From the NCBI RefSeq assembly GCF_041260155.1, contig NC_091944.1, positions 13,989,772-14,053,771 on the forward strand: a stretch of DNA of 64,000 bases, read 5' to 3'. Below, piece after piece: positions 31,313 to 63,373 of the stretch. Made by a program: the position numbers and the translations under genes. The stretch comes from Ptychodera flava. Taxonomy: Eukaryota > Hemichordata > Enteropneusta > Ptychoderidae. The notes below the pieces were generated by a model. That model was not told the origin of the DNA. It made no database searches and worked only from the letters and a program-made list of their open reading frames with translations. Positions within the stretch are counted from its first letter, which is position 1, and each line of letters opens with the position of its first letter.

Positions 31313-31363
31313 GATCGAGGCGGTGTCATCGCTTCACAAAGTTTCCATGTTTCATCTCACGTC
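31313..31363 (-). other. 5-prime UTR of the LRR-death gene with upstream ATGs
   Basis: After the acceptor TTGTCTTCCAG/ the leader contains three short upstream ATGs before the main start, including one opening a ten-codon uORF. This may dampen translation; that is an inference. Confidence 0.45.
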
Positions 31364-39101: not shown

Positions 39102-39708
39102 ATGAAGAAAGCAATGAAAAAAAAGAAGGCAACGCCGTTCAAAAGCCAGGCACCAGTTCCTAACTTTGAAGAAAGTCAACAGGCCGTTCAGCAGTCCTAT
39201 TTTGACACCAGTAATTTAGGCAACGTACCTGAGAGCAATGTGTCGTTTGAGGAGCCCATTCTGCAGAGTAATGTATATGAAGAAGCCCCCGTCCAACAGA
39301 GCAATAAAGCGCCATCCAGATTTTCCATTGCCCCTCAGTCTCATGGAAATGAGAATCACCATCTGCAACATTTTGTTCCGCCGCCACCACCACCAAGACC
39401 ACCATCCCTGGCACGAAAATCGCAACCTCCGCTGACAGAACGACCGCAGAAATCCAAAGGTCCTCTTTTAAAGTCCAAAGCAAGACCACCCCCGCTGAAA
39501 CTTAAGAAAGCAGCTGTTTATGAGAGTGATGATGAGGACGATGACGATGACGAAGATTATGATGATGATGAGCAGTTGTTCTCCATTAACACTTCAAATA
39601 ATGTTCCACCGCCACTGCCTTTCAGCGCTGGTGACTTAAAACAGGCAAAAGTTAAAATTGGTAAAGCGGTACAATTGAAAGAATTGAGGCAGCAAGCTTC
39701 TAAAACAG
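39102..39708 (+). CDS. ROCO-MBT exon 1: proline-rich, acidic N-terminus
   Basis: The ATG follows a likely acceptor (ATTTTACAG/ at 39097), so an untranslated first exon probably lies upstream. Residues 2-9 are lysine-rich. PPPPPPRPP at 93-101 and PPPLPF near 169-174 are SH3/EVH1-type ligands, and an acidic run of Asp/Glu covers 141-157. It ends AAACAG/GTGAGA in phase 1. The segment looks disordered. Confidence 0.85.
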
Positions 39709-42700
39709 GTGAGAAAGAGCAATAGATGCTATTTATCAAATGCGAAGATCTCACTACATCGCAGACTGTGTTCAAGATGGCATTCTTCATGAGTTGTATG
39801 TCTGATGGTGCTTAATGGTTCTCTTAAATGACAATAAATTTTGAATGTATCGTAACTGTCATTGAATTTCATATATATATGAGGTATCACAATCGTTTTG
39901 TATTCCAGAATGTGCTTTACAACCAATTGCATTTTAGTGTATCAACAAACTGATAAGAACAAGAGTAAAATCTATGTGATACAGTCTTTCCTCATAAAAT
40001 GTAATAAAAAAATCGTCGACCATATCGATCTTACTGTTATACCAGATGAATTTTACGCTTGTTCAGTTTTTTGATACACTGAAATGCAATTGGTTGTACG
40101 TTTAGAATGTGTTCATCTTGAACATCAATATCTTTAAACATTTCAAATCCGTGTAAATTGTAGATTGTAAGTTATTTTTCACTGATGTGGATATTTGAAA
40201 TGTGTAAGGAGCTTGGAAACTTCTGTTATAAGGAAACTCACTTAAATCAAAAGATAAGAATATGATCATTGTTTTGCCCTTTTTTCAGTTGATTTTACCA
40301 GGGTGGACCTACTACGAAAACTCGACGCAGATGTCACCAGTTATATTCCAATTCATAGGATGATGGTAAGAGACCAATTTTTTTTCTACCTCTGCAGGTG
40401 TTTCATGTTACATTCGTAGACTTCACTGAGTATTTCTGTGACATTTGCAGACACCTCTCCTTGTGAGGAAGGGTATACAATATTGAACAGCTATACAGCT
40501 TTGTACCGACCACCTTGGTCTACTTTTTCCAGCTTTTCCAGAAAAGTGCTTTAGTATTTGACTCTTGTATTGAAATGGGTCATTTTTGGTCCTGTTTTTC
40601 TTTGGCCAAGTTAAAAATTATGGCAAGGAACCTCCCTCCGACCTCAGAAACAGATCTGTACAATTTCATATTCAAGTTTCATATCATATATAGCACACTT
40701 GTAGGTTAAACCAGGGAGAATACGAACTCCTTTCCTTAACACCTGTGCAGTTACACTTTAACCCTTTTACCACAATGGTTTGGCCCAACCCACTATTATC
40801 AATGGTGAGTGTGGACCTGTTGAAAGGAAATTGAGGGTGAATAGGTTAAAGGTATACAGTCACCTGTAATCTAAATATGCCCATATATGGTCAAAGGGGT
40901 GTTCCTTAGTATTCAAAATGCCCATATGAGGGCGCTGTTTTTAAAAAGTGGCCACCCGCTTAAAATCTGTGATTGGTTAGATTTTCTCTTTCCATGGTTA
41001 CTGTGGCAAAATTAGAACAAGTGACAGTGTACCTTTAAGAAATACCCAATGTGGCTCTAAAATATTTATGCAACATTGCACATGATGCTAAGTTTGATGT
41101 TTCTGATCTGTATACAAGTCTGTCATCATTTCTGTTTATAACGGAGGTCAACTTTTTTAAGATAAAGCAACAGTTTCAGAGGATTGTAGTGAAACATATT
41201 CAACCCAAAAATGCTGACAACAGTTTTTCCCTGGGTTCCATTCAAAATAAAATTAATCCTTTGTAAAGATTAATTCTTCTTTACGAAGTTGAATTAGTTG
41301 AACGGCTCTTTTATACCCATGACATGTTTCCCAAAGATATGAGAAACTCAAGATCTAAACAGCTACCTGTAGTATTAATGTAGTTCACACCTTAAAAGTG
41401 AAAGACTTGAACTTTTACTCAAACTTTCCTCAATGAAACCATCAACTGTACTTTTACCAAATCAATGATAGAAATAAAGGGTCACTGAGAAAAGTTTGGT
41501 GCTAGAGAAATATATCACCATAAATTTACTAACATTTGGAATTCAAAATGGCTGCTGTCCCTATGTTGTAACTCTATGGGAAAAAGTAAAATGTTTGATA
41601 TTTTGAAAAACTAAGACAGTGAAAGTGTTTCTCTCTTCAAGAGCTTTAAAATGAGCACCCACGTGTGGTAGATCAGAAAAGAATCATAAAAATTTTGAAG
41701 TCTGAATGTCTGTCCCAGAGGCATATTCTACCTTAATAAGTATACGGTAAAATCGTTTTTAAATTTGTATAAAAATTAACACATCCAGTTTCACATGAGA
41801 ACATCTACATTCAGATTATTGATGGGACTTGAGCAGACGACTTGTAAAAATCATACAGAACTTGCAGAAGGTAGTTTAATTTCCAAATTCATCATAAATG
41901 TAGCTTATTGCAAACAAAACCAAATTCAGTAATTATTAAGGTAGCGGTAAAGGCTATTTTTGCACCAATTCTTTTCTCAGAGTTAATGTCAAGTTTCAAG
42001 TGTTAGAATCAAGATATTTAGTTCAAATTTTCAGGATAACTCCCTTAGTTAATACTTTCTCCAAAGAATATAAAAATTGTATATTTGTAGCCATGATTTT
42101 GAAATATGACACCAATCAATATTAAAATTTAATTTTTCATATTTTTTTACATATTTTAATTTAATAATATATTAATATTACCAAATTAGTTATAAATATG
42201 TTGACACTATTAATTGTAAGATTTGTACGGCAGGATTTGTAAATAAAATTTGTTTTTATGATTTTACATGGGTTTACATATCAAAAAATTATTAAAAATT
42301 CTTTCAAATTTCAAAATGTGATTTTTCAAAAAGTACTTCAAATACAGGAAAATTGTGCCGTACAAATCTTATCTGTAACCTTGTTAATAGGCTGTAAAAA
42401 TTCCATGTCCATATCTCATTTCAAAGGTTGGATTAAATTGGTATAAAATTATGTAGGAAAACTATTATTCTGTTAAAAATGTTGAAAACAAGCCATATTT
42501 GCACCCCTCTTTTGAAGTCACAGAGCAGTCTTTTTGGTTAATCTCACTTTTGACACCTCTTTGACACTCAAAGAATCTAAAAATGCATTTATAATGACAG
42601 TCACACATTCTGAATGCAAACACTGCCTTGTCAAACTTTCCTGAAAAACAGTAAAAAATGACTTTCCCTTTTCAAACATTTTTTTAAAAGCTAGGGGACC

Positions 42701-45700: not shown

Positions 45701-48700
45701 ATGAAGGTTATTTATTGTCACAATAACACAAAAATTTCAAGATTTTTCCAAATTTTTTTATTGACAGGAGGTGGCCAAATCCAGCATGCCTGGCAATGTG
45801 ATGAGAAGTAAAATGAGTTTCTACGGCATTGAGCAAACAACGGACATGGTGATCAAGACTTGGCTCGACAACTGGGGTCAGGATAAATCTTCACATCTGG
45901 TCAGTCTCATAATGCATGGCTGTGTCAACATCACTGATGATTCTGTGGAATGGATCGCAAAGGCTTGTCCAAACCTGGAAACCGTGAGTCTTCCACTTCA
46001 GTACTGCCACATATGACCAAAGTACTGATATTGCACACATTTAACCATTTGAGCGCTGTAATTTTCTCCTGCCAAAATTTTTAATAGTGCAAAATTTTAA
46101 CAATTTTTATGAATTTTTCTGTAATTTTTAAAATAATTTTGGATCAAATGGACATCATATTTCATTGGCTACAGTTTTTCCTCAAATTTTTGGCAAAAAT
46201 CTGAGAAAAATTGACTGGGGTTTATTTTATATAGGGGACAAAAATAGACTTTGGCACTCAAAGGGTTAACTCTTTCACTACCATTTTCTAGTATATGGGT
46301 TAGTCCATCCCTTTGAAAACAATGGGATATTCCAAAGATTGAAGGTAAAATGGTTGAACATGAATATTAATGAGCATAAATATGCATTCTGCTTTTAATA
46401 TTTCTTAAGAGTGTTAATAAGTCTGATTAATGAGTCTAAATGAGATCAAAATGTCAACTTTACACAGTGTAACATGTTGTCATGGTGATCAATTCTCCTC
46501 ATCTTTATCCCAGGTCATCTTCAGTGGATGTAGAAATCTCACAGACCGATCTCTGATGATGCTGCTGAGTAAATGCACCAAGTTAGAGTATGTGTCATTG
46601 GTCGGTACAGCCATCACATCAATTCCTGAGGCTGCTGGGTCCCTCAAATACCTCAGTATCAAAGGATGTCCGATACACACTCCCATGAAAGACCTGCTGG
46701 AGCCAAAAGAGGTTGATGTGGCCACTTATGTCAAAAATTATTATCAAGGTAAACAGAATAGCGTTAATCGCGATTTCAGGTTTGTTTACTAAATATAGTT
46801 GCACGCGCGTGACTTTCGGACAACTGCCTAAAATTCAGACAAATTTTGTTGTTACATGCGCTGCTGTTATTGCAGCTTGTAGACTGAGCCATAAATTCAT
46901 ACGAATAAGTGTGACTTTTAGTAGCGATTGTAACACTAGCAGATTTTATTTTCCTCGTTTATATGGAAAAATGCGGACAAATATTTATTTATGCATATAA
47001 ATGAGAAAAAAGTGACATCTTTTGCGATCAGCGCTATTAAAGATATTTGACATCTTTGTTTTGGTGCAGAAGTAGGTAGAATATACAATATTACCAGCAG
47101 CAAGGCTTAGTGCAAATTGACCTGGCTGGTAGTCACAGATTTGGCTGGCTACTCTCCAAACATGTTCTCAGCCATGAAGGGTGGCAGATTTGACCCTGTC
47201 ACACCATTGTTTGGCTCAAAACCATCGTTATCAAATCATTTGTGATTCTGGACCTGCATGTTTACAGAAACTTTGAACAATTTTGTAGGGGCTCATTTTG
47301 AAATATATAGAGCTAAAAAAACGTTTTCACTGGCTTCGTTTTGTGAAAATCAGGAATTTGATTTTCTCCCATAGAAATAAAACAGGGATGGCAGCCATTT
47401 TGAATTTCAAATACATTGGTAAATATGCGTAAATATGTTGGGTATTTATTAATCCCCATGGACACCGTCCAGGGGGACTTATAGGTTTGGTCATGTCCGT
47501 GCATGCGTCTGTCCGTCCGTCTGTCCGTCCGTCCGTTCACGCAGATATCTCAGAGATGCCTGGAGCGATTTCATTCAAACTTGGTACAAGGATTACTTCA
47601 TATGTCATAAAGATGCACGTCGATTTGTTTTGTGATACGATCCAATATGGCTGCCAGGCGGCCATTTTATTACACTTTTTTCATGTACAGAGCCATAACT
47701 CAGGCATGTTTCAACTGATTTTATTCAAAGTTGGTACAAGGACATTGACCAATGTCATAGATATGCACGTCAATTTTTTTTGTGATACGATCCAATATGG
47801 CCGCCGTGCGGCCATTTTCTTACGATTTTTTCATGTACAGAGCCATTACTCAGGCATGTTTCAAGAGATTTTATTCAAACTTGGTACAAGGACATTGACC
47901 AATGTCATAGCTATGCACATCAATTTGTTTTGTGATACGATCCAATATGGCCGCTGTGCGGCCATTTTGTTACGAATTTTTCATGTACAGAGCCATAACT
48001 CAGGCGTAACTCAACCGATTTTATTCAAACTTGGTACAAGGACATTGACCTATGTCATGCACATGCACATTGATTTGTTTTGTGATACGATCCAATATGG
48101 CCGCTGTGTGGCCATTTTATTACATTTTTTCATGTCCAGAACCATAACTCAGACATGTATCAAGCGAATTTATTCAAAGTTGGTACAAGGAGATTGACCA
48201 ATGTCATAGATATGCACATCAATTTTTTTTGTGATACGATCCAATATGGCCGCCTTGCGGCCATTTTCTTACGATTTTTTCATGTACAGAGCCATTACTC
48301 AGGCATGTTTCAAGAGATTTTATTCAAACTTGGTACAAGGACATTGACCAATGTCATAGCTATGCACATCAATTTGTTTTGTGATACGATCCAATATGGC
48401 CGCTGTGCGGCTATTTTGTTACGAATTTTTCATGTACAGAGCCATAACTCAGGCGTAACTCAACCGATTTTATTCAAACTTGGTACAAGGACATTGACCT
48501 ATGTCATGCACATGCACATTGATTTGTTTTGTGATACGATCCAATATGGCCGCTGTGTGGCCATTTTATTACATTTTTTCATGTCCAGAACCATAACTCA
48601 GACATGTATCAAGCGAATTTATTCAAAGTTGAAGGAGATTGACCAATGTCATACATATGCACATTAATTTGTTTTGTGATATGAATTATATATTCGAAAT

Positions 48701-50956
48701 GAATTATATATTCCAAGACACAGAACTCAAATTTTTAAGAGGAGTTTTACGTATAGCGGTGTCAAAATATGGAATAGTTTACCAGCGGATGTCAAATTTT
48801 GCTCTACTCTTCACTCTTTTAAAACGAAATGTAAGCCTCATCTTTTGGCAAAATGTAATTTTTAAGCCATTTTTGGAGTTTTTTATATTTTGTCATCTGT
48901 TTCTTGCTGTCTTAATGTTTTGTTTTTCTCTGTTCCGTTTTTTATATTCTTTAATGTACATATTGTATATTTCTTGCGTCTCGACACTGTGTGAGAAGAG
49001 CCTTCGGCTAAACAGTCTATCGAGTTTAAATAAAGTCTAATAATGATAATGAATGATATGATCCAATATGGCTGCTGTGCAGCCATTTGTTATGATTTTT
49101 CATGTACAAGCCATAACTCGGGCATATCTCAACCAATTTTAATCAAATTTGCTACAAGGACATTGACCTATGTCATACATATGCTCATTTATTTGTTTTG
49201 TGATACGATCCAATATGGCCAACCGTTTGGCCATTACGATTTTTTCATGTCCTGAGCTACAACTCAGACATGTATCAAGCGAATTCATTCAAGTGTTTTT
49301 ATCACAGACCTAATGAAGACGACTCTATCCTCTCTGAGGACCTGTAATCAAAGTACCCATTAACAAGTGGGGACTGTGTCATCAACGATGACTTGTTCCT
49401 CTAGTAAATCTATTACCAAAATTTGCATGGTATTCCAATTTTTATTCTTAATTTTGAAAGAGATGGTTTAAAGTTGCTTGATGAAAGTTTGAGGAAAAGT
49501 TTTAAGTCTTTCATTTTTTTGGTGCAAACTATTGTAAATCAGAAACTAAATTTCTTGCTATTAGCACTTACATGTGTTTTGCAGCCATATCCTTTATTTC
49601 TGTTGTATAACAATTTTTGTACAATTTCAACGTTAATCCCTATACAGAAATCATGAGAGCCTGTTTTGTTTTCAAAGTTTTTAAAAAAACATGATGATAT
49701 GAAAATTATACAAAAAGTCAGGAATAGTAAGGCCTGCGTTGCTGAAGAGTTGAGATCAAACATCCATAATTAACAATTTTTACCTTTTTACTGAACAGAC
49801 AACAAATGGACACGGTACTCCGCCTACAAAATGGTGGTGACAGGACTTTGTGGAGGAAAGAAATCAGAACTGATAAATCAGATGGGCTTGACTTTCAAGG
49901 AAAAGGGTAAAATGTGCAATATCCATGGAAACTGGGTTCCAAGGAGCAAACAGAATCAGGATAAGCAGATGGTGTACAATGTCATTGATGCCAATGACCA
50001 GGTAATCATAGCTGTTCTGTACATTGAATGTCAGACCTGTACATCACATGGATGTAACTTTGGATACATTTTGCTGCGTCTTTGTTGAGTCTGTGAAATA
50101 CAGAATCATTCTACTTCTAAAATCATGTTGAAATGATGGGTGTTCAACTTGTCAACAGAGGCTCTATATGTGTAATGTCCCATAGCATCTTATTGTTGAC
50201 TAATGAATTTCAGGGTAGGCTTTGATCCATTGTCAACAATAATATTGTGCATTGTACATGATGCATTGCGAGGAAAGATTAACTTCTTTTTGTTTCAAAA
50301 GACAAAGAAGATAGTGTTCTTTTTTCAGTTACCAAAAATGAAATTTTATCCAGATTTCTACCTTTGCCTGTTGGTATGCACTGGAAGATGTCACTTGAAG
50401 GTACTGCAAGAAGCGCCTTCAAGTGACAGATTGTCCAGTCTTAAATTGATAATGGAATTCAAAATGGCTGCCATCCCTGTGTTAACTCCGGGAAAAAAGG
50501 AAACTTTTGAATTTCTAAAAACTAACACAGTGAAAATTCTTCTATTCTTCTATTCATCAAGAGTTTTAAAATGAGCCCCCACAATTGATAGGTCACAAAA
50601 GAATGATAAAACTTGAGAGTCCAAATATCTGTGTCTGAGGTATACTTTACCTTAATGGAGAATATTTTGCATGTATACTTGCAGTGCACCCTGGATTTAT
50701 TTACAAGTGAACGTTATGTCTTTATTGTGACCTGTGATTTGAATGATGCCAAAGCAGCAGAGAAGTGTGTCAGCTGTATTGGAAAAATAGCTGTACAGGT
50801 AAGTAACATTAATCATGAAAGTTGAGCTGTGATGTGTCATCACATTACGGGATATCCTGGATTGTAAAAGCATAGCATTGTAGAAATATGTTGGCAGTGG
50901 AGATGATGATGATGATGATGATGATGATGATAATGATGGTGGTGATGATGATGATA

Positions 50957-50994
<38 letters not shown>

Positions 50995-51034
50995 AATGAT
51001 GATGATGTTTATGATGAGGATGATGGTGGTGGTA

Positions 51035-51067
<33 letters not shown>

Positions 51068-54000
51068 CAGAAGAAGATGATTTGACGATGATGTGTATTG
51101 CCCTGGTAACATCAACAGCAACATTGAGTGTTCAAATAGAGTATATCCTGTACCATACTTTGTGTGTAGCATATTCATATTGATAGTGGAGGCGACGATG
51201 ATGATTATGATTGACCTGGTAACATCAACAATGATATTGAGAACAATTGTTCAAATAGGGAATATCCTGTACAATACTGTGTGTGTAGCACATTCACCAT
51301 CGACAGTTAGAAAACTGATGGATTTTGGTGCTATTTCAGGGCTATTTTTAATTAATGCCTTTGATTGATTGACTAATTGCTTGACCTATTGATTGATTGA
51401 TTGATTGATTGATAAACCATAAAGCTTTGTTTGAAAAGTTTCAATTATCACAGTGATTCATAATGCATATTGACATACTTTTCTTAAATAAATACTCTGT
51501 ATTTAGGAAACAGAGCACTTGATGCACAGAGAATGTGTAATGTGAAACAACTCAAGCACAGAAAGCAGTTTTGCTGTCAGGAATTAGCATTATGATGTAT
51601 TGCCTAGTAGCTTTTTGAAAACACATCATCCTGCAGACTGTCCTATCACAGTTTGAAATGATGAGATATTGCAATGTGCAACATACATTTTAACAAGAAA
51701 GTTTACGTAGTGTTCTGTGATGTCATCATTAGGCCGTACATGCCTTCTTTGTGATTGTGGCAACACACGAGGGCAAGGATGATGAAAGTACAAAGGCAAA
51801 GACACTGCTGCAAGACATTTTGTCTCTGATGGAAAAGAGGAAGACAGAATTGCATGCAATGAAAGCTGCAATTGATAAGTAAGTGCTCTTCTGTATATAC
51901 TTTATGGTAAATGAGAGATTCTTTTGATATGCTTTAAGAAAAGGGTATATTGGTCTTAGTATCAGCGAAAGTGAACAAGTAGATTTCTGCTGTCCATAAT
52001 CCAGATATGTACAGAACTTGAAGTTTATTTTGTGCTGAATTTTCTTTGATATATTGTTTCATATTGTCAACAGCTATGTCTTATCATAGACTGTTGACTC
52101 TAAATGAGCATATAGGTGCAATCTAAAGTTAGAGGTTATAGGTCACAGGTCATACCTCTGTAGGTCAGAAGCCACAGATGAGATTTTGTATGTATTTTAG
52201 AATGAAAATAAGAGAATGTGGTACGTGTGTATTCAAACTCTGTAGTCTACTGGGTGTACTCAGTGTGTAAAGTGAAGGAAAATTCATCCCTGCATTGAAC
52301 TTTGCAGGCACGGTAACCGTTCTGAACTGCAATTGGTTTGAGATGAGAGACATGAATCTGTTATCTGAATATATAGTAAGTTTTAGTGACAAAAGCCAAT
52401 TAAAGTGTACCACATTGCAGCCATCTTTAGTTCATACTATAATATTGACGTTGTTTTGTCTTACAGTAAACCAGAACTAGCAGACTTCCAAACACAGCTG
52501 ATGTACGGTAGAATCCAGTCTGTAATGTCATCAAGTCCCCACTTTGAGGTCTATGACATCAACCCAGTCTCTGGCCAGGTAAAGAGATCACATTTGAAGT
52601 CCAGGTTACTTCTAACTTGGCTATCACATGCAACACTCTTGCAGTCATGCTAGATGCTCAAAACTTTCAGAAGACTAGAATTAAAGAGCCAGATTTGCAT
52701 GATAACTGATCGTATCAAAAAGTAAAATTAGGAAAAGAGGTTGACTTGCTCAAAAAGGCAAAACATTTTTTTCTCTTTGTGTGAGTGTTTTATTTTAGAC
52801 ATAATTTAATTCATTTTTTCATGACAGCTCATGGTATATATCATCACACTTTTTACCATTCATTTTTTTGTCTCTTTGCAAAGTTTTTCATTCTGCTGAT
52901 GGATCCATATTTGCCAAGTTCCTGGAATATAAAGAAAAAGTCCTGCATTAGTTCTAAGTGTATTTGCAACCAAAGTAAACAATAAAATTCTCATGCAATT
53001 AATTTAATAAATTGGAAAATTGTGGCAAAATAAAAAGTGACAGAATAAGAGAAGTGACAAATTAACTGCTGAGTGTATCATTCTGTGTGTTTTGTCAATT
53101 TTTCAGGGCATGGACAAGCTTCATGATGGCCTTGCTAATCTCAAAGACAAAATCGACGAGACATTCCCACACCTTGTCAAGTTTTCCAAGGAGTTTGTGG
53201 AAGAGGCTGAAAATTTCCTGAAAGTTCCGGCAAAGACAGCGAGGAAGATTGTACCATTCTCAGATTATGACTTTTTCTTTGGAGGCAGAGAACAGCTGAT
53301 GACACTGCGTACAGCTAATGTGCATGATAAGATACTTGAAACCCTACACTTGATGGTGAGTTCATACTAGTCATGTGATTATCATGTGATTCAGTTTGGC
53401 ATTACTGATATGTGTGATAAGATTCTCTAAACCCTACTCTTAATCAGTCATGTGATTGCCATGTGACCTATTTGGTATTGCTGATATGTGTGATAAGATA
53501 CTTAAAACTACACTTAATCAGTCATGTTATTGTCATGTGACCAAGTTTGGTACTGCTTATGTGCATGATAAGATTCTTAAAACTCTGCACTCAGTTGTAG
53601 GTGCATAAACGGTCATGTGATTGTCATGTGACCTAATTTGATGCTGTCAGTGTGGGGTAAAATTCTTTAAAATACTGTAGATGATGGTTGCATATCAGTG
53701 ATGTAAGTGATTGTCATGTGACTTTAAGTGTTCATATCAGCTTGTACAATTTTAATGTCAGTCACATGATAGTCAAAATAATTTAACATAATGTGCACTC
53801 AAGATTTTGGAAATTTTACGAGTGCTAAAGAATTTCTGTGAATTTCCTAAAATCAGCAGGTATGTGTTATCTTTAGAACATTCTTGAGTCAAAGACAACT
53901 TTTTTAAGACAGCGATGTGTCAAAGTGACCCAGGGGATGCAATCGTGTAACAGTGTTTATTTTGATGTGGTTGTGATTTCATCATTTCAAATATCAATGA

Positions 54001-54904
54001 AGCAACAGCTTAGCCTTTTCTATTCATAAATGTTTTTGTCGGCTCAAAATATCAAAGGAAACTTGAGAATTGTTCCATAATTCACAATGAAATAGAAGAC
54101 ACAACAACAATGTTTTTGACTTGTTATGAAGTCTGAAATTGCCCAAATTGTATTGAAGTCATGTGATAGATTTGATTTACCATGTGATGAACACATGATT
54201 ACCTCTGAAATTCCACACTGTTTCTTGCAGGGTAAGCTGCTATACTTCAAGGATGTTGAAGACAAACCAGTGATATTTGATGTAGACTGGTTCATGAAAA
54301 TCATCAACACACTGGTGGATGTGAGTCCAGGAGGCAAAGTCGGCACACTGTCAGAATTCGGTGAACAGACACCAGTTTTGTCCTTTGAATTGATTCAGCA
54401 GAAACTCAGTGGTTTTGTTCCAAATGATCAGGTCAGTATCCACTCTGTGAGACTGCAGAATAATGGGCCCAAGCTAAACCATGTTACAATTCAAAGTTGT
54501 CCTAACGTGGCGTTTATTATAAGAATTATAAAACGACACCCCTGAGAGTTGTTGGTAGGAAAAAGGTCAAAGTAGAAGATATGAACCATAGAATTGTTCT
54601 TTCACTTTGATATAAAATGTTGCAAAACAGTATTGTTTGAATTTGTACACGTTTGTTTTGATTTTGAGCTTTCGGACAAATCATGACTTGTAAAGCCTAC
54701 ACTAACACAAGACATTAACTTAAAAGCGACACATTCTTTTGTTTTTCTCAGATTAATGACGTGGTGACCTTGATGCAAGATCTTGGACTCTGTATGAAGT
54801 TGTCTTACTTCAAACATATCAGCAGTGATGAAGACAAGTTTACAAATGTTCCAATTGTGATGTATCAAGCGTTGCAGTCGGATACTCCACAAATTTTGGT
54901 TAGT

Positions 54905-54947
<43 letters not shown>

Positions 54948-57900
54948 GCTATTTTCAGAGAGTACAGCTGATATTAGAAATTCAGATTGACTGACTGAAT
55001 TTTTGTCGGGTAGAAAGAGGAATTAACAAGAGAACCAAATACGAGTGGTTGCCCCATACTGATACATTCAAAATGAAGAAAAATGGTTACACAAATGCTG
55101 TTCAGAAATTTAGAGTTCAGAATCTTTCAAAACTGTCAGTCGAAATTTGCATACGTTCCTCATACCATATCACTCTTTACAGAGTCATTATTGGTCCGAC
55201 ATTCCGTCCAAGACAGAGAAACGGATACAGAGGAGCTTCCAGTGTGGTGGCAGTCTACCGGAAAGACTGTGTAGCTGTATCTTTGAACAGTGTAGTGTAT
55301 TTGGAAATGTCCTGCTGTGTTGGAAGAAGGGACTACTGATTCAACAAGGAGCCATTGATATACTAATTCAGGTCAAAGGTGAGAGTTCAAAGTTTGCAGT
55401 CATGGCAACTGATTTTATAATCTCAGCCATGAAAGGAGGTGTTCTCCAGTGGCCTTAGGTTTAATTTTGAGACTATTCTTGAGTTGGATATTTTGATGTT
55501 TTGCAATTTTTTGCTACAAATAATATCCTTGGAAAAAAGTTACATTTGTTCCATATCATTGTGAAATTATTATGACATATGGAGTCATTGTCAAGATACA
55601 AATGTTTAAGTTTTCACAGAACATTTGATTTTGCTTTCAAATTTGCAATATTTTTGTAAAGCACATGGGAAAGAAAAACACATTTTATGCATGTGTTTCA
55701 CAAAAGAGAATTAAATGTAAGTTCTACTCTCAAATAATCATAGGTTTGATGATGAGGTATATGCAAGTAAGTTTATTCAACCTAGATGTGTTGAATAGTG
55801 GAGATGATAGATGAAATTTGATATGATTCCATGTGATTCAATATGACAGGAGTCTCCATTATGACTCTTAGTCAATAGTTTTTTGGGGGCAGTTAAAAAT
55901 CAAAAGCTGGATATTTATATTAACGCATGCAAACCTAAAATAGTTACATGTCATCTGTAATACAGTTACTGGTGTCTTGTGGTATCACTAGGGAAACTGC
56001 AGTTGTGTGGATCGTGAATTCACTCTTTATACTGTGATATCCAGAAATTGATGTGGGTTTTAGTTTGAAAAAGTATTTAAATATGGAGATATAAAACCTT
56101 ACTAAGAAAAAAGGTGAGTCAAACTTGAAACATATCGTCAAAGCATTAGAAAAGTGGTCACAGCTTTTAGCGTGATATCTCCCAATTCCAAGTAATAATG
56201 TTATTTTTTCCTTCGTTCTTCACTACAGACAATGGTAGAGTCTATCTCAGCTGCTGTACTCTGAAGAAAGATACCTTGATAGAAACCATGTACAGAACAT
56301 TCAATGTCATCTCCACAGCAATTACGGGTGTTATTTCTCGATATAGTCCACACATTGCAATGGTAAATATTATTATTTTAAGCCTTCCACCCCCATGGCC
56401 AAGAGTAGAGGTCAAACCTTGCCATGGAAAACGATTGAGTTTTACCATAATCTAGTGGTTGAAAGGTGAAAATATTGTCTGTATGGTATCAGCGATTGAA
56501 ATCCTGCCAATATGGTATGAGTCACTTCGTGTAAGTGATATGAAATAGAAATGTTACGTGACGTGTGAAAGAACACACCTTATAATCTTGCATGTCTGTG
56601 TCCAATACACAAATATTGTTCAAATTTCTTTAAAGAAATTGTCAGGAGAATGATGAAATTAGAGAAATGAAAAATGTTGCACACACAAAATTTGATGCTT
56701 TATAAATGCATGCATGAAAATACTAAAATGTACATTTTATGAAACCAACGCAAAAAGTTATTTTTCTCCAAAATGAGCATCAAAGTGGTTCAGTAACATA
56801 TGCTTCAAAGTTTCAAAGTGATAAATTTAAAAGTTTGTAATCTGAACAAACGCAACCTTTTTGTGCATTTTCTCAGTTTGTAAATGTGGCTTGTCCATCC
56901 TGTGTTGAGACGACTCCAGAACCTGAGGAGTTTTCCATGGATGAGATCAAACATTTGCAAGGAACCAAGCAGTGTGGGAAGTGTGGCCAGTTCCATCGCA
57001 AAGAAGACCTACTCTCTCCAGGTGAGCCAAGGTCAGAGGTCATGAATAGGTCAAAGGTCAAACAAGATGCAAACGCCCAGGATATCTCCTGCTTTTAACA
57101 GTTAAAGTGATGTAGTTACGGGTTTGTCAGAAGAAATATGCAATTTTTTTCCATAATCACAATGCTTTATAGACTGAAAGATCCATTGCTTAAAGGTATA
57201 CAATCACCTGTAATCTAAATATGTCCATATATGGTCAAAGGGGTGTTAATTTGCATTCAAAATGTCCATTGGTGATTTGTGATTGGTTAGATTTTCTCTT
57301 TCCATGGTAACTGTGGCAAAATTGGAACAGGTGATAGTATACCTTTAGAGGCGCTCTCTACGCTCCCCCAAGAGGGGGGAGCGTAAAGAGCGCCCTCAAG
57401 CGACGGATCTATCAGTCCAGATGCTTTAGGGACACACTCAATGACCAGAAAATTCCACTTTCACCTGTTTTGATGGGAATATTGTTATAGTTTAAGAAAG
57501 CTCACTAATCACGCATACAGATTACTGTTGTTGTGGAAAATTTAAAGTACTCCATACATTTATTTTCTCCTCACTTATTGAAAGGTCATTTTTTTACTCT
57601 AGAGTTTGTGTACTGCTTTCCTTTTTTTATCAATTGAAACTTCCAGTTGTACTCTTGATGAAAGCAACACGAAAAGTTATTTGTTAAAAGTTAAGTGTAT
57701 TTCAGAATAAAGCATGACTTTGTGTTGACCTATAGATAAAATACTGGCTACAAGTACATTGCACAGTTGGGGCAGAAGTGTGTGCGATGTTTATTCACTG
57801 GCTGATGTGTCATTCAGAATGGATTTTATCACAATAATAAATTTATTTATAACACAAAGCACCTGGCTGCATAAAGTTTGCATGGTATCATAGAAAAGCA

Positions 57901-60900
57901 GATGTTGAAAGGCAGGAAACAGCTTGTTAGGGGAAAACAACTGACTGAAATTAGTGAAAAATGAGCAATCCTGGTCCTGTGCAAGACGCTGAGACTCCAA
58001 GGAAAATTTTCACAGTTATTCAGCAACTGTCCTGCTCAATACAAAATACATTGCAACCTGAGAGACAGGGGACATGCAAGAACTAATGCCACTTCTTGTG
58101 TGTATTTCATTTTTCAGAGAAGACAAAGGTGTGCCTCGTCCACAACTGGGATGACGGACCAGAGGATCCCTCTGCAGCATTCCGTTCTGACCTCACCTGT
58201 GCTCAGCTCCGTCAGACCCTGCAGACGCAGGAGAACTGCGCCATCGTGGGGCAGCATTACAGTCAGCGAAATGTAAAGAGGAGGAAAACGAAGGCGTGCG
58301 TTCACTGTGGAACGTCAGAATACTGCAGTGCAATCTTACATGTATGTGTTCTACAATATCCTCATTTCCAAAAATAAGTGAAAGCGTTCTGTATGTTTCT
58401 TAGGGTGTTTGAAAAATGGAAAAATAGGGAAAAATAGCCAGCCAAAATTAGCAAACAGCCACTCAATGAGTGTGGTTTACTGCATTGGACACACTGAGAA
58501 AACTAAACTTTCATTTCAGTGGTTTCAAATATTTACCTCATTAGATATTCAAAGATTCGTTGTGTTCATCATCTAAAGATCAAGCTTGTCTGTATGATCT
58601 CAATGTTATTTATGCCATTGGTAATTTGGGTGAGGATGTAAGCAAAACCAGATCCATTTCTCAACAAAAATAATTCATCATCAGGATCTCTATAAAAACA
58701 GTGATTTTGTTGCATCGTATTATTAAACCCTGCTGTAATTTTTTCCAACCAAATTTAAGTGCAACATTTTACCAATTTTTATGGATTTTTCTGAAGCTTT
58801 TTGATAATTATGGACCAGATGGACATCATAATTAATTGACTACAGTTTTTTTATCAAAATTGTAGTCAAAATCTGAAAAAACTGGCATATATTTTCTATT
58901 GACTTTGGAGCTCAAAGGGTTAATCTTTTTCATCGTAAAATACTAGTATCACCATTTTAATCTTATATTTGATTTTTCATTTTCATCTCATGATTTGTAT
59001 TGGTTCGTTATTCAAAGTACAAATTCAATTTTATTTTTGATTTGAACTCAAATTCATTTCCTGTCAAACTCAGGTCCGTGCCAGGTTATCACTAGTCTTA
59101 AGGTTTGGGTGTGTACATGACGACAGGTTTTAACGCTCATTTACCATTGTATCTGTGATCAAACATTGAATATATTGTGTTTTGTTTTATTTTATATTTT
59201 TTTGAAGCGGAAAGAATTTGTCATCAGGATTGGTGACTGTGCCTTGATAAGATTTTTTAGTGACTGCGTACCACTTATGACCATGCATTCTGGTACCCTC
59301 ATTGATATGACGATCTATCACTTTGATTTCACCCTTCGCCATAATGGTTTAGCCCAAACCCATAGTTTATACTAATGGCGAGTGTAGACCTGGCTATAGG
59401 AAATTAGGGATGAACTGGTTAACATTGTGTAAAAGTCAATCATGTTTACTGAATTCTCTGCTGAATTGTCACTTTTTGAGCAATAACTTACAGTTTTCTT
59501 GCAGATAATGTTGAATTGTGATTACAACAGAACACCAAAGATAAATGCAAGGTCATCTAAGAGTCATATGACCATGGCTTATTCTGCTTTCTCTGTACTT
59601 TTCTTATCCAGTATGAATTCCAATACCTTCTTTGAAACACCTGTTTGCTTTCAGAAACTTTACCATGGGTCTCACAGAGCTCACATCATCCAGACCGCAA
59701 GTGTCGGCAAGGACAAATTTGTTGAGAAAGAAATTGACCGGGCCCAAACTGGCAATATCTTCAACCATGCAAAAGACGACCCAGTGAGAATCATCACGGG
59801 AATGGAGATGAATGCATTAGAGTTCAGTGAACTCTCTGTATTGGTTCTAAACTGTCTGAGGATTGGAAATGTTGAAATTGGTTTCTCCAGAACAGGAACG
59901 ATTCATCAATTTCAGCACGTTCAAACAGGTGATATTCTCACTTGTAAGCTGATTCGGGAGCTTGACAAGGATTCAAATGAGTTTATCGGCAAGGTTAGTC
60001 AAGTCACTTGATTCCCCTTGCAGGCACAGTTAATTCAGCAATGACTTGCCCAAAACCAATCCATGATGATTGTGAGTGCATTTACAGTGATTTGAGGGGG
60101 GGGGGGGGGGGGGGTTGTTGAACAGGTTCAGAAAAGGCCAGTGGGAAGTAATCTGCAGGCAATCAATGATATAGGGTATGCCACAGGGGATCAGCGGAAA
60201 GCCTTACAAAAATGTACAGAAGAAATCCTTTCTCCTTCGGAGAAAGGTTCCACAAGAATCAAAAGGAACTGCTGTTGAATTTTTGCGGGATTTCAGTGAT
60301 AATTTGATAATACTAGTGCTCCCATGTACATGTACATCCTCTTTCCTGAAGCTTTTGCTTTGCGACTGTTTAGCGCCTCTGAACTGTAAATACATAGCGT
60401 GTACTGGTGCTTAATAAATTATTTGATTGATTGATAGAAGGTGTATGCTCCTGGAAAGTACTAGAATTTTAAAAACCTGCTGGAAATGTTTTGGAAATGT
60501 CCTTGAAAATGAAATTGAGTGCTTGAAAGTCCTGAACAATCTAAGTCACCAGTGATTTTCAAAATTCACAAAGTCTGATCCGATATAATATGGTCAAACT
60601 GATATGTAAAATGATGTATAAAAATACTGAATCGGAAAAATATCTAGAAAGTGGTATTTTAGGCTTCAAAAGTCCTTGAAAATTAATGAAAAAGTCCTTT
60701 GATTTGTATGAGGACTTTGAGTGTGAACGGAAATGTCATTCAAAATTCTCGTTGTATGTTTTTGTGAAGGAGCTGTACCTTTTGATACATTTGATGAATA
60801 TAAAAACGGTTGCTTATGGAAAGCCTTTCGTAAACATCAATGTAGTTTCAACATGTACAGCTGTTGTCTGATATTCTTTTCAATTGGGTTCGCAGGCCAT

Positions 60901-63373
60901 CTTTCTGAAGAATGGTGCCAAGGTGGGTGAAAACAGAGTCACAGATGGTAGACTTAGCACGCCTTTCTTTACGCTGTCTGGAAATGATAAGTTGACCGTC
61001 ATGATTTACTCTCCGGTCATTCCTGTGAGTATAAATTTGTTCATTTTAACTATCGGTAACTTTCATATATCTACCCAATTTTAATGTCTGACCTATCTGA
61101 CCGAAGACTGCATGTTATGCACTGTGTCAGAATGTGAGACATTTTCAAACTAGTTTCTCAGATCAAAAGACTGAGCCAAAGTGCTCTACGGCTTATAGTT
61201 CAGAACTTTTTTTAAGTTAGATGTGAAATGGAAGTTTTCGCAAAAATGTGTTTCATCCCTGTTCATAAACAACTATATGTCAACTCATACAGTACAGGTC
61301 ACCAACAGATTTATAGAAAGTAGCAAAGACAACGAGGTTATTATGAAAATACAGCAAAGGATGCACGAGGACATGCGCGGTGCCAATGTCTGAGTGCATC
61401 CTTTGCGTTGTTTCTTACATTCATGACTGGTTGGGCATCAAATTGTCAGAGTAGTGACCGTTATCGTGCAATGTCAACAATTTTTCTTCCGATTTATAGC
61501 GCAAGTGTGGAATGCTATCTCGGACGTGCTTCTGCAAGTTCTGGATAGTGTGTGTGCACTACACACGTACGTACAGAGCGCGCAAGACTTGTTCTGGCAC
61601 TTGTCCAATGAGTCCCTTGAAACCGTTCAGCTGTGAACACGCAGATATAGCTGCAGCAGATGGGGTGCCTGGAAACCGTATGTGTTACGGAATGGGCGTT
61701 CTTTTTTTAGCACACGCGAAATTCTATTGTTCTCGATGGTAGATGTATAATAATAACAGATATGTTGTATATCCTGTGTGTATACAAACATGGTCCAAAG
61801 ATATAGATATGTGGTCCAGACAAACATACAGGTCCATGTACAACAAGATGTATGTTTGTAGGTAGGTAGGTATGTGGGTAGGTAGGTGAGTAGGTAGGCT
61901 GGTAGTATGTACTGTATGTGTATCTATCTAACCATCTGTCTATCTGTCTGATCTCTAAATATGGATAATAGATGGATATAGATAGATGGATAGATAGATA
62001 TAATTAGATACATTTTATTAATATATAAGTGATATGTTTGCACGATATTTCTTCTCGGTCCATGAATTTTGGAACACAATATATTTCATTAGGTTTGGAG
62101 CTCACTTTCTTTGCAATTTGAGACTGGAATGCGCTTGGAAGCCCTTGACAGGAAAAATCCTCACCTCACTTGTGTGGCTACCATTGATGACATTAATGAC
62201 AAGGGTGAGCTGCTGATTCATTTTGATGGCTGGGGAAGAAACTTTGATTATTGGTGTGAACAGACGGACAAAGATATCCATCCCCTGGGATACTGCGATC
62301 ACGTGGGCATTGACTTGCAGGAACCTCGCGGTAAGCGCACAGAAATCTACTCAAAGTATGAAAGATAATCAAATTCATAAGTTTAATGGTTTCTTTTTGT
62401 TAACAGTTTGTTCAGGGCAGTGAAACATTTTTAATGTGGTGAATTGCAGGTTGTTATATATCATCTACCATGAAAAGGTTTCCTGATTTTGAAATAACTG
62501 AAAGATGACCATAATTTTTATCTGATGATCTACCGGTACTCTAAAGAGGCATCGGTTTACATTGGAAATTCTTTGAGAGCTGTTATATTTCTGACCATAA
62601 TTGATATTTGTTATGAATTTATCTGTAGTTTTTTTTATCATTTTGAACCAAAAGACAATAACTCTTCATTGAGTTATGAATGAGTTGTTGAATCATCTTG
62701 AGTAGTCTAACATTTGTAAGCTTATTACAGATGTCACCAGAGATGTAACAGTACTGCAAAATCTAAGTCAACAATTGCACAGATCATTAACCCTATGAGC
62801 ACTGTAATTTTTCGTAAAAATATATCGGGCAACATTTTATCAATTTTTATGAATTTTTCTATAATTTTGTCCATGGTTTTGGACCAGATGGACATAAATT
62901 TTCATGGCCTACACTTTTTGACCAAAATTTTGGAAAAAGTCAGAAAAAAATTGTGTAGATCAGAAAGAAATTGTTGGCGTTATATTGTATAAACGCAACA
63001 AAAATCGACTTTGGCACTCAAAGGGTTAAAGGGAGGGGTCATTGTAACTGAGTCTGTGCAAGTTTCCTTGTCTACATGGAACATATTTCATGCATGATAT
63101 CTAGATGCATCACGTCAACATAGCTGTAACATTTAAATTTCACTATGTAGATTACGACAAACACGTCTTAACTTTCCGAATCGATTGTCAATTTATACGG
63201 GTCCTGTAAAACCTTTGAGCACAGCTCCGACAACCCCTCCCTTTAAACTTCTTACTTCTTTGATTCTTCAATCACAAACAGGCTACAGTGGTCAATATCG
63301 TAAAAGGTTCACCTGGAAGACATATCTGGAGGATATAAAAGCTGTTGCTGTTCCATACCTTTTGTTCACCAAG
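39102..63373 (+). CDS. ROCO-MBT chimera: LRR, degenerate Roc, COR, zinc ribbon, SPRY-like, MBT (partial at 3-prime end)
   Basis: Nineteen exons assemble with all phases matching: 39102-39708, 40289-40365, 45768-45983, 46514-46748, 49799-50001, 50685-50798, 51733-51878, 52467-52578, 53107-53355, 54231-54431, 54752-54898, 55183-55378, 56229-56362, 56877-57021, 58118-58341, 59655-59993, 60896-61024, 62093-62330, 63282-63373 (1268 codons). Order: Pro-rich and acidic tail (1-202), cysteine-type LRRs (about 255-365), Roc-like domain (385-570), COR (571-879), CxxC pair (880-927), SPRY-like region (1003-1158), MBT 1 (1167-1237), start of MBT 2 (1245-). ROCO proteins are GTPase-regulated signalling scaffolds; MBT domains bind methylated histone lysines. 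Roc motifs G1 and G3 are broken, so a pseudo-GTPase is likely. The gene runs past the right edge. Confidence 0.92.
40289..40365 (+). CDS. ROCO-MBT exon 2
   Basis: A 77-nt exon (CTTTTTTCAG/ to GATGATG/GTAAGA) encodes VDFTRVDLLRKLDADVTSYI then PIHRMM. Phase 1 to 0. No domain is assigned. Confidence 0.85.
40762..40845 (+). mobile_element. TTAA MITE family 2, copy
   Basis: CCCTTTTACCACAATGGTTT to GGGTGAATAGG, flanked by TTAA on both sides (40758-40761, 40846-40849). It is in intron 2 of the ROCO-MBT gene. Confidence 0.75.
40850..41034 (+). mobile_element. TTAA MITE family 3, copy 1
   Basis: AGGTATACAGTCACCTGT at the left and ACAAGTGACAGTGTACCT at the right form inverted ends. It directly abuts the family 2 copy, sharing one TTAA. 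A second copy is at 57194-57344. Confidence 0.8.
41375..41732 (-). mobile_element. TTAA MITE family 4 copy
   Basis: It carries AAAGTGAAAGACTTGAAC, GGAATTCAAAATGGCTGCTG and a GGCATATTCTACC end followed by TTAA, the reverse-orientation form of family 4. Confidence 0.65.
41940..42900. mobile_element. 0.96-kb TTAA-flanked element with perfect 17-bp inverted ends
   Basis: GGTAGCGGTAAAGGCTA at 41940 is matched exactly by TAGCCTTTACCGCTACC ending at 42900, and TTAA flanks both sides (41936-41939, 42901-42904). The interior is very AT-rich with no transposase. TTAA targets suggest piggyBac-type mobilisation (inference). Confidence 0.85.
43402..43716 (-). mobile_element. TTAA MITE family 4 copy
   Basis: GGTAGTATGCACCTCGAAAG at the left and CCGAGCACATTCTAGATACC at the right; interior GGGAATTCAAAATTAGCTGCC. 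Flanks GTAA/TTAC are decayed. Confidence 0.65.
44366..44451. repeat. GC-rich inverted repeat
   Basis: AGACCCTGCGATTCGCGT pairs with ACGCGAATCCCAGGGTCT (17 of 18). The patch 44360-44830 is unusually CpG-rich for an intron and holds a CRE-like TGACGTCA at 44651-44658. Confidence 0.6.
45768..45983 (+). CDS. ROCO-MBT exon 3 (start of LRRs)
   Basis: A 216-nt exon in phase 0 contains LVSLIMHGCVNITDDSVEWI and AKACPNLET, a cysteine-containing LRR as in FBXL/AMN1 proteins. The preceding part (SKMSFYGIEQTTDMVIKTWL) is probably a helical cap. Confidence 0.88.
46045..46265 (+). mobile_element. TTAA MITE family 1, copy 2
   Basis: CCATTTGAGCGCTGTAATTT to TTTGGCACTCAAAGGG, with TTAA on both sides (46041-46044, 46266-46269). 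Confidence 0.85.
46514..46748 (+). CDS. ROCO-MBT exon 4 (LRRs)
   Basis: It encodes VIFSGCRNLTDRSLMMLLSK, CTKLEYVSLVGTAITSIPEA and LKYLSIKGCPIHTPMKDLL, three further repeats. Splice sites are TTTATCCCAG/ and TATCAAG/GTAAAC, phase 0 to 1. Confidence 0.9.
47451..49393 (+). mobile_element. Pearl-like element Y: ACGG-type microsatellite and about nine 150-bp tandem units
   Basis: It starts with a hairpin (CCCCATGGACACCGTCCAGGGG), a GTCCGTCC/ACGG microsatellite (47507-47538), then units of 149-150 bp, each with GATCCAATATGGCCGC and a TTCAAACTTGGTACAAGG block. GATCCAATATGG recurs at 47639, 47789, 47939, 48089, 48238, 48388 and 48538, then 49060 and 49207. Units 3-5 are duplicated as units 6-8. Because 150 is a multiple of 3, long ORFs (47487-48197, 48155-48667) appear; they are artefacts. 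Confidence 0.8.
48685..49053 (+). mobile_element. 5-prime truncated LINE tail inside the 150-bp array
   Basis: It reads SFTYSGVKIWNSLPADVKFC then LHSFKTKCKPHLLAKCNF, the WNxLPxxhK...FKxxLxxHLL tail of CR1/Jockey-type reverse transcriptase ORFs. The target duplication TGATATGA occurs at 48677-48684 and 49054-49061. A-rich 3-prime tail AATAAAGTCTAATAATGATA. Confidence 0.8.
49799..50001 (+). CDS. ROCO-MBT exon 5 (Roc P-loop region, degenerate)
   Basis: YKMVVTGLCGGKKSELINQM aligns with the Roc P-loop, but the invariant glycine before Lys-Ser is Lys (GLCGGKKS, residues 394-401). The exon ends NVIDANDQ, where active Roc domains have DFAGQ. Nucleotide binding is therefore doubtful. Confidence 0.88.
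50440..50655 (-). mobile_element. TTAA MITE family 4 fragment
   Basis: It contains ATGGAATTCAAAATGGCTGC and a right end TGAGGTATACTTTACC followed by TTAA. The left part is lost or rearranged. It lies just before exon 6. Confidence 0.5.
50685..50798 (+). CDS. ROCO-MBT exon 6 (Roc core)
   Basis: A 114-nt phase-0 exon encodes CTLDLFTSERYVFIVTCDLN and DAKAAEKCVSCIGKIAVQ, matching the strand after switch II in Roc domains. It has a good acceptor (TACTTGCAG/) and donor (ACAG/GTAAGT). Confidence 0.85.
50903..51069 (+). repeat. (GAT)n microsatellite
   Basis: Imperfect GAT tract in intron 6. The poly-Met and poly-His ORFs are artefacts. Confidence 0.95.
51387..51413 (+). repeat. (ATTG)n microsatellite
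   Basis: Short ATTG tetranucleotide tract in intron 6. Confidence 0.85.
51733..51878 (+). CDS. ROCO-MBT exon 7 (Roc G4 region)
   Basis: AVHAFFVIVATHEGKDDEST corresponds to the hhVGTHxD strand of Roc; the G4 Asp is displaced. A helical EDILS-like tail follows. The donor GATAA/GTAAGT leaves phase 2, completed by the next exon to Asn. Confidence 0.85.
52467..52578 (+). CDS. ROCO-MBT exon 8 (end of Roc)
   Basis: It encodes KPELADFQTQLMYGRIQSVM then SSSPHFEVYDINPVSGQ. Phase 2 to 0, CTTACAG/ to GGCCAG/GTAAAG. Confidence 0.85.
53107..53355 (+). CDS. ROCO-MBT exon 9 (start of COR)
   Basis: It encodes GMDKLHDGLANLKDKIDETF and further to EQLMTLRTANVHDKILETLH. This is the N-terminal half of COR, the dimerisation domain coupled to Roc in ROCO proteins. 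Confidence 0.88.
54231..54431 (+). CDS. ROCO-MBT exon 10 (COR core)
   Basis: GKLLYFKDVEDKPVIFDVDW and FMKIINTLVDVSPGG match the signature COR segment (GxxLYFxx, VIFDPxWL). TTTCTTGCAG/ to GATCAG/GTCAGT, phase 0. This is the strongest single indicator of the COR family. Confidence 0.92.
54752..54898 (+). CDS. ROCO-MBT exon 11 (COR)
   Basis: It encodes INDVVTLMQDLGLCMKLSYF and VPIVMYQALQSDTPQIL, the small winged-helix part of COR. A (GA)n tract follows the donor within 10 bases. Confidence 0.88.
54908..54942 (+). repeat. (GA)n microsatellite
   Basis: Perfect GA tract starting about ten bases after the exon 11 donor (TTG/GTTAGT). Confidence 0.95.
55183..55378 (+). CDS. ROCO-MBT exon 12 (COR C-terminal half)
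   Basis: It encodes SKTEKRIQRSFQCGGSLPER and VLLCWKKGLLIQQGAIDILI. The RSFQC...LPERL pattern is the COR beta segment (FPPGLF-like in other ROCO proteins). Phase 0 to 1. Confidence 0.88.
56229..56362 (+). CDS. ROCO-MBT exon 13 (end of COR)
   Basis: DNGRVYLSCCTLKKDTLIET followed by MYRTFNVISTAITGVISRYS. TTCACTACAG/ to GCAATG/GTAAAT. Confidence 0.85.
56877..57021 (+). CDS. ROCO-MBT exon 14 (zinc-ribbon-like)
   Basis: CPSC and CGKC pairs in FVNVACPSCVETTPEP and QCGKCGQFHRKEDLLSP suggest a zinc-binding ribbon like the CPxC segment that follows COR in several invertebrate ROCO proteins. Phase 0 to 1. Confidence 0.85.
57194..57344 (+). mobile_element. TTAA MITE family 3, copy 2
   Basis: AGGTATACAATCACCTGT to ACAGGTGATAGTATACCT, with TTAA on the left (57190-57193) and TTAG on the right. 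Confidence 0.8.
57350..57394. repeat. Strong 20-bp hairpin
   Basis: GGCGCTCTCTACGCTCCCCC pairs with GGGGGAGCGTAAAGAGCGCC with one mismatch and a 5-base loop. It begins 6 bp after the end of the MITE at 57344, in intron 14. Confidence 0.85.
58118..58341 (+). CDS. ROCO-MBT exon 15
   Basis: EKTKVCLVHNWDDGPEDPSA, then SQRNVKRRKTKACVHCGTSE and YCSAILH. It has further Cys pairs (CVHC) and a basic patch. No domain is named. TTTTTCAG/ to TTACAT/GTATGT. Confidence 0.82.
58727..58919 (+). mobile_element. TTAA MITE family 1, copy 3
   Basis: Decayed left end (ACCCTGCTGTAATTTTTTCC), right end GGAGCTCAAAGGG, TTAA on both sides. Confidence 0.75.
59331..59418 (+). mobile_element. TTAA MITE family 2, copy
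   Basis: CCCTTCGCCATAATGGTTTA to ATGAACTGG, with TTAA on the right and a decayed left flank. Confidence 0.65.
59655..59993 (+). CDS. ROCO-MBT exon 16 (SPRY-like, part 1)
   Basis: A 339-nt exon. The C-terminal half (VEIGFSRTGTIHQF, then HVQTGDILTCKLIRELDKDS) resembles the GxxxxGDxIGC strand pair of SPRY/B30.2 domains. Assignment is tentative. Phase 0 to 0. Confidence 0.8.
60096..60115 (+). repeat. Poly-G tract
   Basis: Run of about 19 G in intron 16. Confidence 0.9.
60896..61024 (+). CDS. ROCO-MBT exon 17 (SPRY-like, part 2)
   Basis: AIFLKNGAKVGENRVTDGRL and PFFTLSGNDKLTVMIYSPVI. The FLKNGxxVG turn and the PFFTL strand are typical of SPRY domains (FFxKNGxxLG). Confidence 0.82.
61858..62002 (+). 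repeat. GTAG and GATA/CTAT tetranucleotide tracts
   Basis: A GTAG-rich stretch (61858-61912) is followed by imperfect CTAT and GATA repeats (61920-62002), in intron 17. Confidence 0.85.
62093..62330 (+). CDS. ROCO-MBT exon 18 (MBT domain 1)
   Basis: FETGMRLEALDRKNPHLTCV, LLIHFDGWGRNFDYWCEQTD and DIHPLGYCDHVG are diagnostic of the malignant-brain-tumour repeat. Aromatic-cage residues (DGW, FDYWC) and the caging Asp (D in RKNPHLTCVATIDD region) are in place, so methyl-lysine binding is possible. ATATTTCATTAG/ to CCTCGCG/GTAAGC. Confidence 0.93.
62791..63025 (+). mobile_element. TTAA MITE family 1, copy 4
   Basis: CCCTATGAGCACTGTAATTT to TTTGGCACTCAAAGGG, with TTAA on both sides (62787-62790, 63026-63029). 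Confidence 0.85.
63282..63373 (+). CDS. ROCO-MBT exon 19 (start of MBT domain 2)
   Basis: FTWKTYLEDIKAVAVPYLLF is the N-terminal FxWxxYLxxxxAxxxPxxLF arm found at the start of each MBT repeat, so at least two repeats exist. The remainder lies beyond the window. Donor TTCACCAAG/GTATTG. Confidence 0.9.

Follow-up and report, generated by a model that had tools for sequence, protein, structure and literature searches.

A putative ROCO-type gene with a degenerate Roc region and an MBT array in the hemichordate Ptychodera flava

The window, i.e. the whole stretch of 64,000 nucleotides analysed here (Ptychodera flava, assembly GCF_041260155.1, contig NC_091944.1, forward-strand positions 13,989,772 to 14,053,771), holds between 39102 and 63373 of its plus strand a chain of 18 phase-consistent exons, the 3675 bases of which yield a spliced translation of 1225 amino acids with 0 stops. 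The chain opens with an ATG at 39102 and displays AG/GT at all junctions. An initial annotation of this DNA had described a phase-matched chain running from start to end without a stop, which is confirmed by the translation, and had counted nineteen exons where 18 were found. The 17 introns measure 284-5402 bases, and introns 14-17 (951-2099 bases) fall inside the range of the ten introns that separate supported exons (320-5402 bases). Exon 13 was supplied by a home-made dynamic programming procedure operating on 385 candidate exons; it is supported by the COR-B match, which is present once this exon is included and absent from drafts without it. The exons are listed below, P0001 being LOC144444212 of Glandiceps talaboti, an uncharacterised hemichordate protein of 777 amino acids.

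Exon 1, 39102..39708, plus strand: start ATG; basic, proline-rich and acidic low-complexity N-terminus; P0001 1-198, tblastn E 5e-7; donor 7.6.
Exon 2, 40289..40365, plus strand: VDFTRVDLLRKLDADVTSYIPIHRMM; 77 bases; P0001 203-224, 68% identity; phase fits.
Exon 3, 45768..45983, plus strand: F-box-type leucine-rich repeats (LRRs); P0001 230-299, 65%.
Exon 4, 46514..46748, plus strand: LRRs; P0001 291-389, 49%.
Exon 5, 49799..50001, plus strand: start of the Roc-like region, with GLCGGKKS at the P-loop place; P0001 369-447.
Exon 6, 50685..50798, plus strand: Roc-like; P0001 438-482, E 2.6e-8.
Exon 7, 51733..51878, plus strand: Roc-like, with THEG at the G4 place (LRRK2 THLD); P0001 487-529, tblastn E 0.014.
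Exon 8, 52467..52578, plus strand: C-terminal part of the Roc-like region; P0001 537-570, E 7e-4.
Exon 9, 53107..53355, plus strand: transition from Roc to COR; P0001 570-653, 62%, E 4e-27.
Exon 10, 54231..54431, plus strand: COR-A (GKLLYFKD..VIFDVDWF); P0001 648-721, E 6e-20; PF16095 E 5.9e-5.
Exon 11, 54752..54898, plus strand: end of COR-A; last exon matched by P0001 (711-768, E 9e-7).
Exon 12, 55183..55378, plus strand: COR-B; PF25497 E 5e-4; on the best dynamic-programming chain.
Exon 13, 56229..56362, plus strand: COR-B; inferred exon that restores the phase, from dynamic programming.
Exon 14, 56877..57021, plus strand: post-COR CPSC..CGKC segment, labelled zinc-ribbon-like from its cysteine spacing alone, without a profile match; on the best dynamic-programming chain; donor 8.2.
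Exon 15, 58118..58341, plus strand: contains CVHCGTSEYCS; codon score 0.028; donor 1.7; without known relatives.
Exon 16, 59655..59993, plus strand: possible start at 59505; 174-codon open frame; codon score 0.039.
Exon 17, 62093..62330, plus strand: complete MBT core with methyl-lysine pocket residues; PF02820 E 9.7e-25.
Exon 18, 63282..63373, plus strand: MBT arm toward a further repeat, presumably past the window; aligned in L3MBTL1 and Batillaria P0002.

Two repeats were observed within the introns of this chain. The intron following exon 9 contains, at 53369-53584, a 75-base tandem repeat whose translation VHDKILKTLH resembles that of the 3' end of exon 9 (VHDKILETLH), as though this part of the exon had been copied. 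At 47564-48681, 7.5 copies of a 150-base repeat, also displaying a 449-base period and long open frames, are perhaps satellite-like or derived from a mobile element. An Rfam search returned no matches. The minus strand carries the following domains:

LRR open reading frame, 29870-31333, minus strand.
Death domain, 27468-27767, minus strand: E 6e-13.
TIR domain, 23708-24214, minus strand: E 3e-17.
Second TIR domain, 444-905, minus strand: E 4e-18.

The order LRR, Death, TIR between 23708 and 31333 points to a likely LRR-Death-TIR gene of immune type, divergent from the ROCO gene, and these nearby exons make an immune-type locus plausible. The TIR domain at 444-905 resembles that at 23708-24214, which suggests a tandem family.

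The first half of the chain has a relative in another hemichordate. When a spliced draft of 952 residues, made up of exons 3-12 and 14-18, was searched against proteins, 8 matches were obtained, headed by P0001 (E 5.6e-179); among the other seven, the sole strong one was the MBT protein P0002. Exons 1-11 are 48-52% identical to P0001 (52% by BLAST over an alignment of 545 columns), and the pieces of P0001 aligned to the window by tblastn land on these same exons, short exon 2 included. The LRRs of exons 3-4 match F-box LRR proteins (FBXL2, 6o60_C, E 4.9e-25; FBXL17, E 1.5e-15). The region that follows is a remote match to the Roc domain of LRRK2 (9c76_A, E 4e-4, query residues 6-141), and no Roc or Ras match was obtained in the Pfam scan of the exon pieces. 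Directly after Roc, COR-A (PF16095, 23.4 bits for a gathering score of 35.3) and COR-B (PF25497, exons 12-14, 20.3 bits for a gathering score of 27) are collinear, both lying under the Pfam gathering scores. The segments GKLLYFKD and VIFDVDWF, quoted earlier as signs of COR, do lie inside the COR matches. Among the domains named by the initial annotation, LRRs, COR and MBT are present, and Roc is recognisable only remotely, with apparently damaged G motifs. P0001 shares the low-complexity N-terminus, F-box-type LRRs, degenerate Roc and COR-A, but as annotated it ends within COR and is devoid of COR-B, zinc ribbon and MBT; COR-B and the zinc-ribbon-like exon thus extend beyond the end point of the Glandiceps model. 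An NCBIfam scan of P0001 gave no match, and a structure predicted for P0001 together with six exons of the window reached a mean pLDDT of 46.8 and was confident mainly over the LRRs. Matches to PBP1_TM, OPA3, IL5 and DUF952 (E 0.03-0.16) were attributed to chance or low complexity and set aside.

The five G motifs are responsible for nucleotide binding, G4 and G5 varying somewhat among Roco proteins, according to PMC6337361. Upon alignment to LRRK2, the G1 (P-loop) place reads GLCGGKKS in the window and DVGSGIKR in Glandiceps; at G3, DxxG is absent from both proteins at the place of the LRRK2 DFAG; and at G4 the LRRK2 THLD is replaced by THEG in the window and THQG in Glandiceps. Intact G1, G3 and G4 motifs were not found in the window Roc by this alignment. 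The G4 change alone proves little because of the published variability of G4-G5, and it is from the damaged look of G1, G3 and G4 together that the window Roc is probably a pseudo-GTPase. GTP-driven signalling is doubtful, since these places depart from the LRRK2 motifs in the window and, in another manner, in Glandiceps.

The second half is defined by exon 17, which covers positions 1-69 of the 69 in the PF02820 profile at 87 bits (cut-off 22). Exons 17 and 18 together align best with repeat 2 of L3MBTL1 (88.8 bits), exon 18 corresponding to the arm after the repeat 2 core. A full MBT repeat plus the start of another had been proposed, and both are recovered, exon 18 being the arm that leads to the next repeat. 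In a simple motif scan of both strands of the whole window, MBT-core motifs occurred only at 62126 and 62222, with none in the 627 bases after 63373. As regards the pocket, alignment with repeat 2 of L3MBTL1 shows the same D, N, L, C, F and W, with Tyr replaced by Phe at the third aromatic, and the methyl-lysine pocket looks intact. The roles assigned to these residues follow in part PMC2747274, which gives Asp/Leu/Phe/Trp/Tyr as the MBTD1 pocket and mentions a pocket cysteine in L3MBTL1 repeat 2.

The class of this MBT repeat was then addressed by similarity and by phylogeny. Searching proteins with the MBT part produced 173 matches from 190 scored candidates, and details were listed for 120 of these matches. 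The top six were four sponge TIR-MBT proteins, P0002 of Batillaria and a further protein, P0010; no Roc or COR accession occurred among the 120 of 173 relatives listed. Seventeen proteins, hand-chosen from 127, were used for repeat scoring. The best single-repeat score of an L3MBTL protein was 92.7, and five scores were higher, namely those of Batillaria (109.1) and of the four sponge TIR-MBT proteins (Amphimedon 107.2, Sycon 102.7, Corticium 98.6, Oscarella 98.4). The sponge TIR-MBT proteins and Batillaria P0002 are thus the ones whose MBT repeats are most similar to that of the window, but they lack a Roc or COR accession among the matches listed. In a tree of 61 repeats from the 17 chosen proteins and the window, built on few columns as the tool itself warned, the window repeat joins the Batillaria five-MBT and P0093 repeats at 93/89, a placement that is not starred. 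The second repeats of L3MBTL proteins, Saccoglossus included, form a starred clade that excludes the window repeat, and the window MBT belongs to none of the starred sets that comprise up to half of the rows. L3MBTL1/3/4 share with the window the MBT fold and the methyl-lysine pocket, but their canonical repeats group apart from it, the unstarred 93/89 placement lying elsewhere. P0093, an MBT chimera located on the branch of the window repeat, carries a cysteine-rich, putatively RING/RBR-like segment flanked by two MBT repeats.

Whether the two halves belong together depends on the exons in between, and the weak link of the chain is the step from exon 15 to exon 16, which combines a weak donor, an alternative stop and a lack of relatives. 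The absence of any out-of-phase junction had been taken as a sign of one gene. The phases do agree, but several junctions have alternative splice sites, so fusion is left unproven by this argument and phase agreement alone is poor proof of one gene. The coding signal was evaluated with a codon score from the training of which exons 15 and 16 were kept out. Among 234 other open reading frames of at least 60 codons (mean -0.24, sd 0.16), a set that still includes neighbouring genes, just 6 outscore exon 15 and 5 outscore exon 16, some of these few being microsatellites or part of the neighbouring LRR gene. Supported exons, left out singly, score from -0.146 to 0.265; the separation is imperfect, as the certain MBT exon 17 scores just -0.068. 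Frames as long as the 174 codons of exon 16 arose in only 0.1% or 1.9% of 1000 simulations, according to the sequence on which these were based. The coding-like character of exons 15-16 and the length of the exon 16 frame for its region likely speak for one gene. Around them, exon 14 is probably not terminal, because of its strong donor, and exon 17 very likely depends on an exon further upstream, since its frame is closed just before it by a TAG at 62090 and the only in-frame ATG close to its start falls within the MBT motif. The grouping of the MBT repeat with tandem or chimeric MBT proteins, not with L3MBTL, together with the ROCO-MBT precedents known elsewhere, would tilt the case somewhat further towards one gene. 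We consider it more probable than not that the ROCO and MBT exons form a single gene.

A serious though less probable alternative places two separate genes side by side on the plus strand. A ROCO gene would end at exon 15 (in-frame stop at 58375-58377) or after exon 14, and a tandem-MBT gene would begin its coding sequence in exon 16 or in an unseen exon. Exon 15 has no good donor (best 1.7, for a range of -0.4 to 8.6 in the ten of eleven supported exons that were scored), and its stop is followed 345 bases downstream by an ATTAAA at 58722. Exon 16, with acceptors at 59505, 59612 and 59655, has a frame open back to 59487 that holds ATGs at 59508-59613; the codon score of 59487-59654 is nevertheless low (-0.148), though equal to that of the lowest supported exon. 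Proteins confined to one half are also known, as Batillaria P0002 is an annotated MBT-repeat protein without a ROCO part, and P0001, which ends after exon 11 without MBT, counts against one gene, as does the fact that none of the annotated proteins retrieved unites the two halves. Space is a difficulty for two genes: with exons 15 and 16 both genuine and assigned to different genes, a 3' UTR, a spacer, a promoter and a 5' UTR would have to fit into only about 1.1 kb, whereas the one other gap measured, to the divergent upstream LRR frame, is about 7.8 kb. Discarding exon 15 would widen this room to about 2.4 kb, and discarding exon 16 would widen it further. Every phase moreover fits the one-gene chain, and ROCO-MBT proteins have precedents in Trichoplax and Aplysia.

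It is also possible, though unlikely, that exons 15 and 16 are partly or wholly wrong and that exon 14 leads through unseen exons to exon 17, an arrangement that would fit one gene or two. No homologue was found for either exon: a search for relatives of exons 12, 14, 15 and 16, spliced in a draft that lacked exon 13, among proteins of 524-1666 amino acids found none, and PDB searches gave nothing convincing with exons 15-16 (best E 0.41) or with a draft of exons 12 and 14 (best E 1.2). The dynamic-programming chain retains exons 12 and 14 as drawn and adds exon 13, but differs beyond, reaching exons 15-17 in the same frames via other splice sites, with a start at 62152, within MBT, and additional exons at 60896 and at 61500. 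The 96-codon frame of exon 15 is unremarkable, being reached in 41% or 71% of simulations. The codon scores of both exons and the rarity of the exon 16 frame argue the other way. Exon 16 alone was predicted with a pLDDT of 41.3. A MYND-like finger across exons 15-16, considered on the basis of spacing, had no Pfam match and was rejected. Finally, an ordinary L3MBTL gene adjoining the ROCO gene, which the strong similarity to L3MBTL1 repeat 2 might suggest, is highly improbable in view of the position of the window MBT with Batillaria and P0093, outside the starred L3MBTL second-repeat clade, and of the lack of an FCS finger or SAM match in the scanned pieces of a gene cut at 64000.

The single gene favoured here would have counterparts in other phyla. 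The initial annotation knew of no described ROCO-MBT member, a view overturned by published accounts of ROCO proteins with MBT in Trichoplax and Aplysia. At least 17 putative ROCO genes are reported for Trichoplax in PMC4104024, where the legend of Figure 1 has MBT among the domains of ROC-COR proteins, and PMC5094078 describes Trichoplax proteins in which TIR_2 and MBT accompany at least one GTPase domain (Roc, Ras or COR). Going by these domain descriptions, the likeness resides in Roc-COR or related GTPase domains joined to MBT repeats, and the difference in the TIR_2 of the PMC5094078 case. LOC101848126 of Aplysia, as described in PMC9334734, likewise has ROC, COR and Mbt in one predicted protein, but is presented as a putative TLR that carries TIR also. 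Actiniarian Novel Gene 1 (PMC5094078) is similar in its F-box-like LRRs, Roc-type GTPase and low-scoring COR; it differs by carrying TIR_2 and a GTPase recognised by ordinary profiles, MBT not being listed in the description given there. In the ROCO-MBT chain of the window, the 3' end of which lies beyond it, no TIR match was obtained in the scanned exon pieces, and a limited literature search found no hemichordate ROCO-MBT protein. This kind of architecture is not new; the window would add a variant from a deuterostome in which Roc is damaged and no TIR has been seen so far.

The complete scheme, which we regard as slightly more probable than not, is that of one gene coding for a ROCO-type chimera with a degenerate Roc and an MBT array. 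Its product would consist, in order, of a low-complexity N-terminus, F-box-type LRRs, a pseudo-GTPase Roc, COR-A, COR-B, a zinc-ribbon-like segment, a linker (exons 15-16, without known relatives) and an MBT array continuing past the window. In PMC6337361, a bacterial RocCOR structure is described as dimerising chiefly through the C-terminal part of COR. The Roc-COR part may serve for dimerisation, as a scaffold and not as a GTP switch, the LRRs may bind a partner, and the MBT repeats may dock the dimer onto proteins carrying mono- or dimethyl-lysine, most likely histones. Related TIR/ROCO/MBT chimeras have been proposed to take part in stress or immune responses, and the present one could do likewise; both the mechanism and the immune role are suggested by resemblance. 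We tentatively propose, with less than even confidence, that in this deuterostome a TIR-less pseudo-GTPase ROCO dimer presents the MBT array, the F-box-type LRR sensor acting on methyl-lysine proteins without a nucleotide switch.

If the ROCO and MBT exons do form one gene, ROCO-MBT chimeras extend from placozoans and molluscs to a hemichordate, and Roc-COR has been kept while the nucleotide motifs decayed in two lineages. This would argue that Roc-COR can act as a scaffold without GTP control, and that one class of MBT repeat has been repeatedly shuffled onto immune-type signalling modules.
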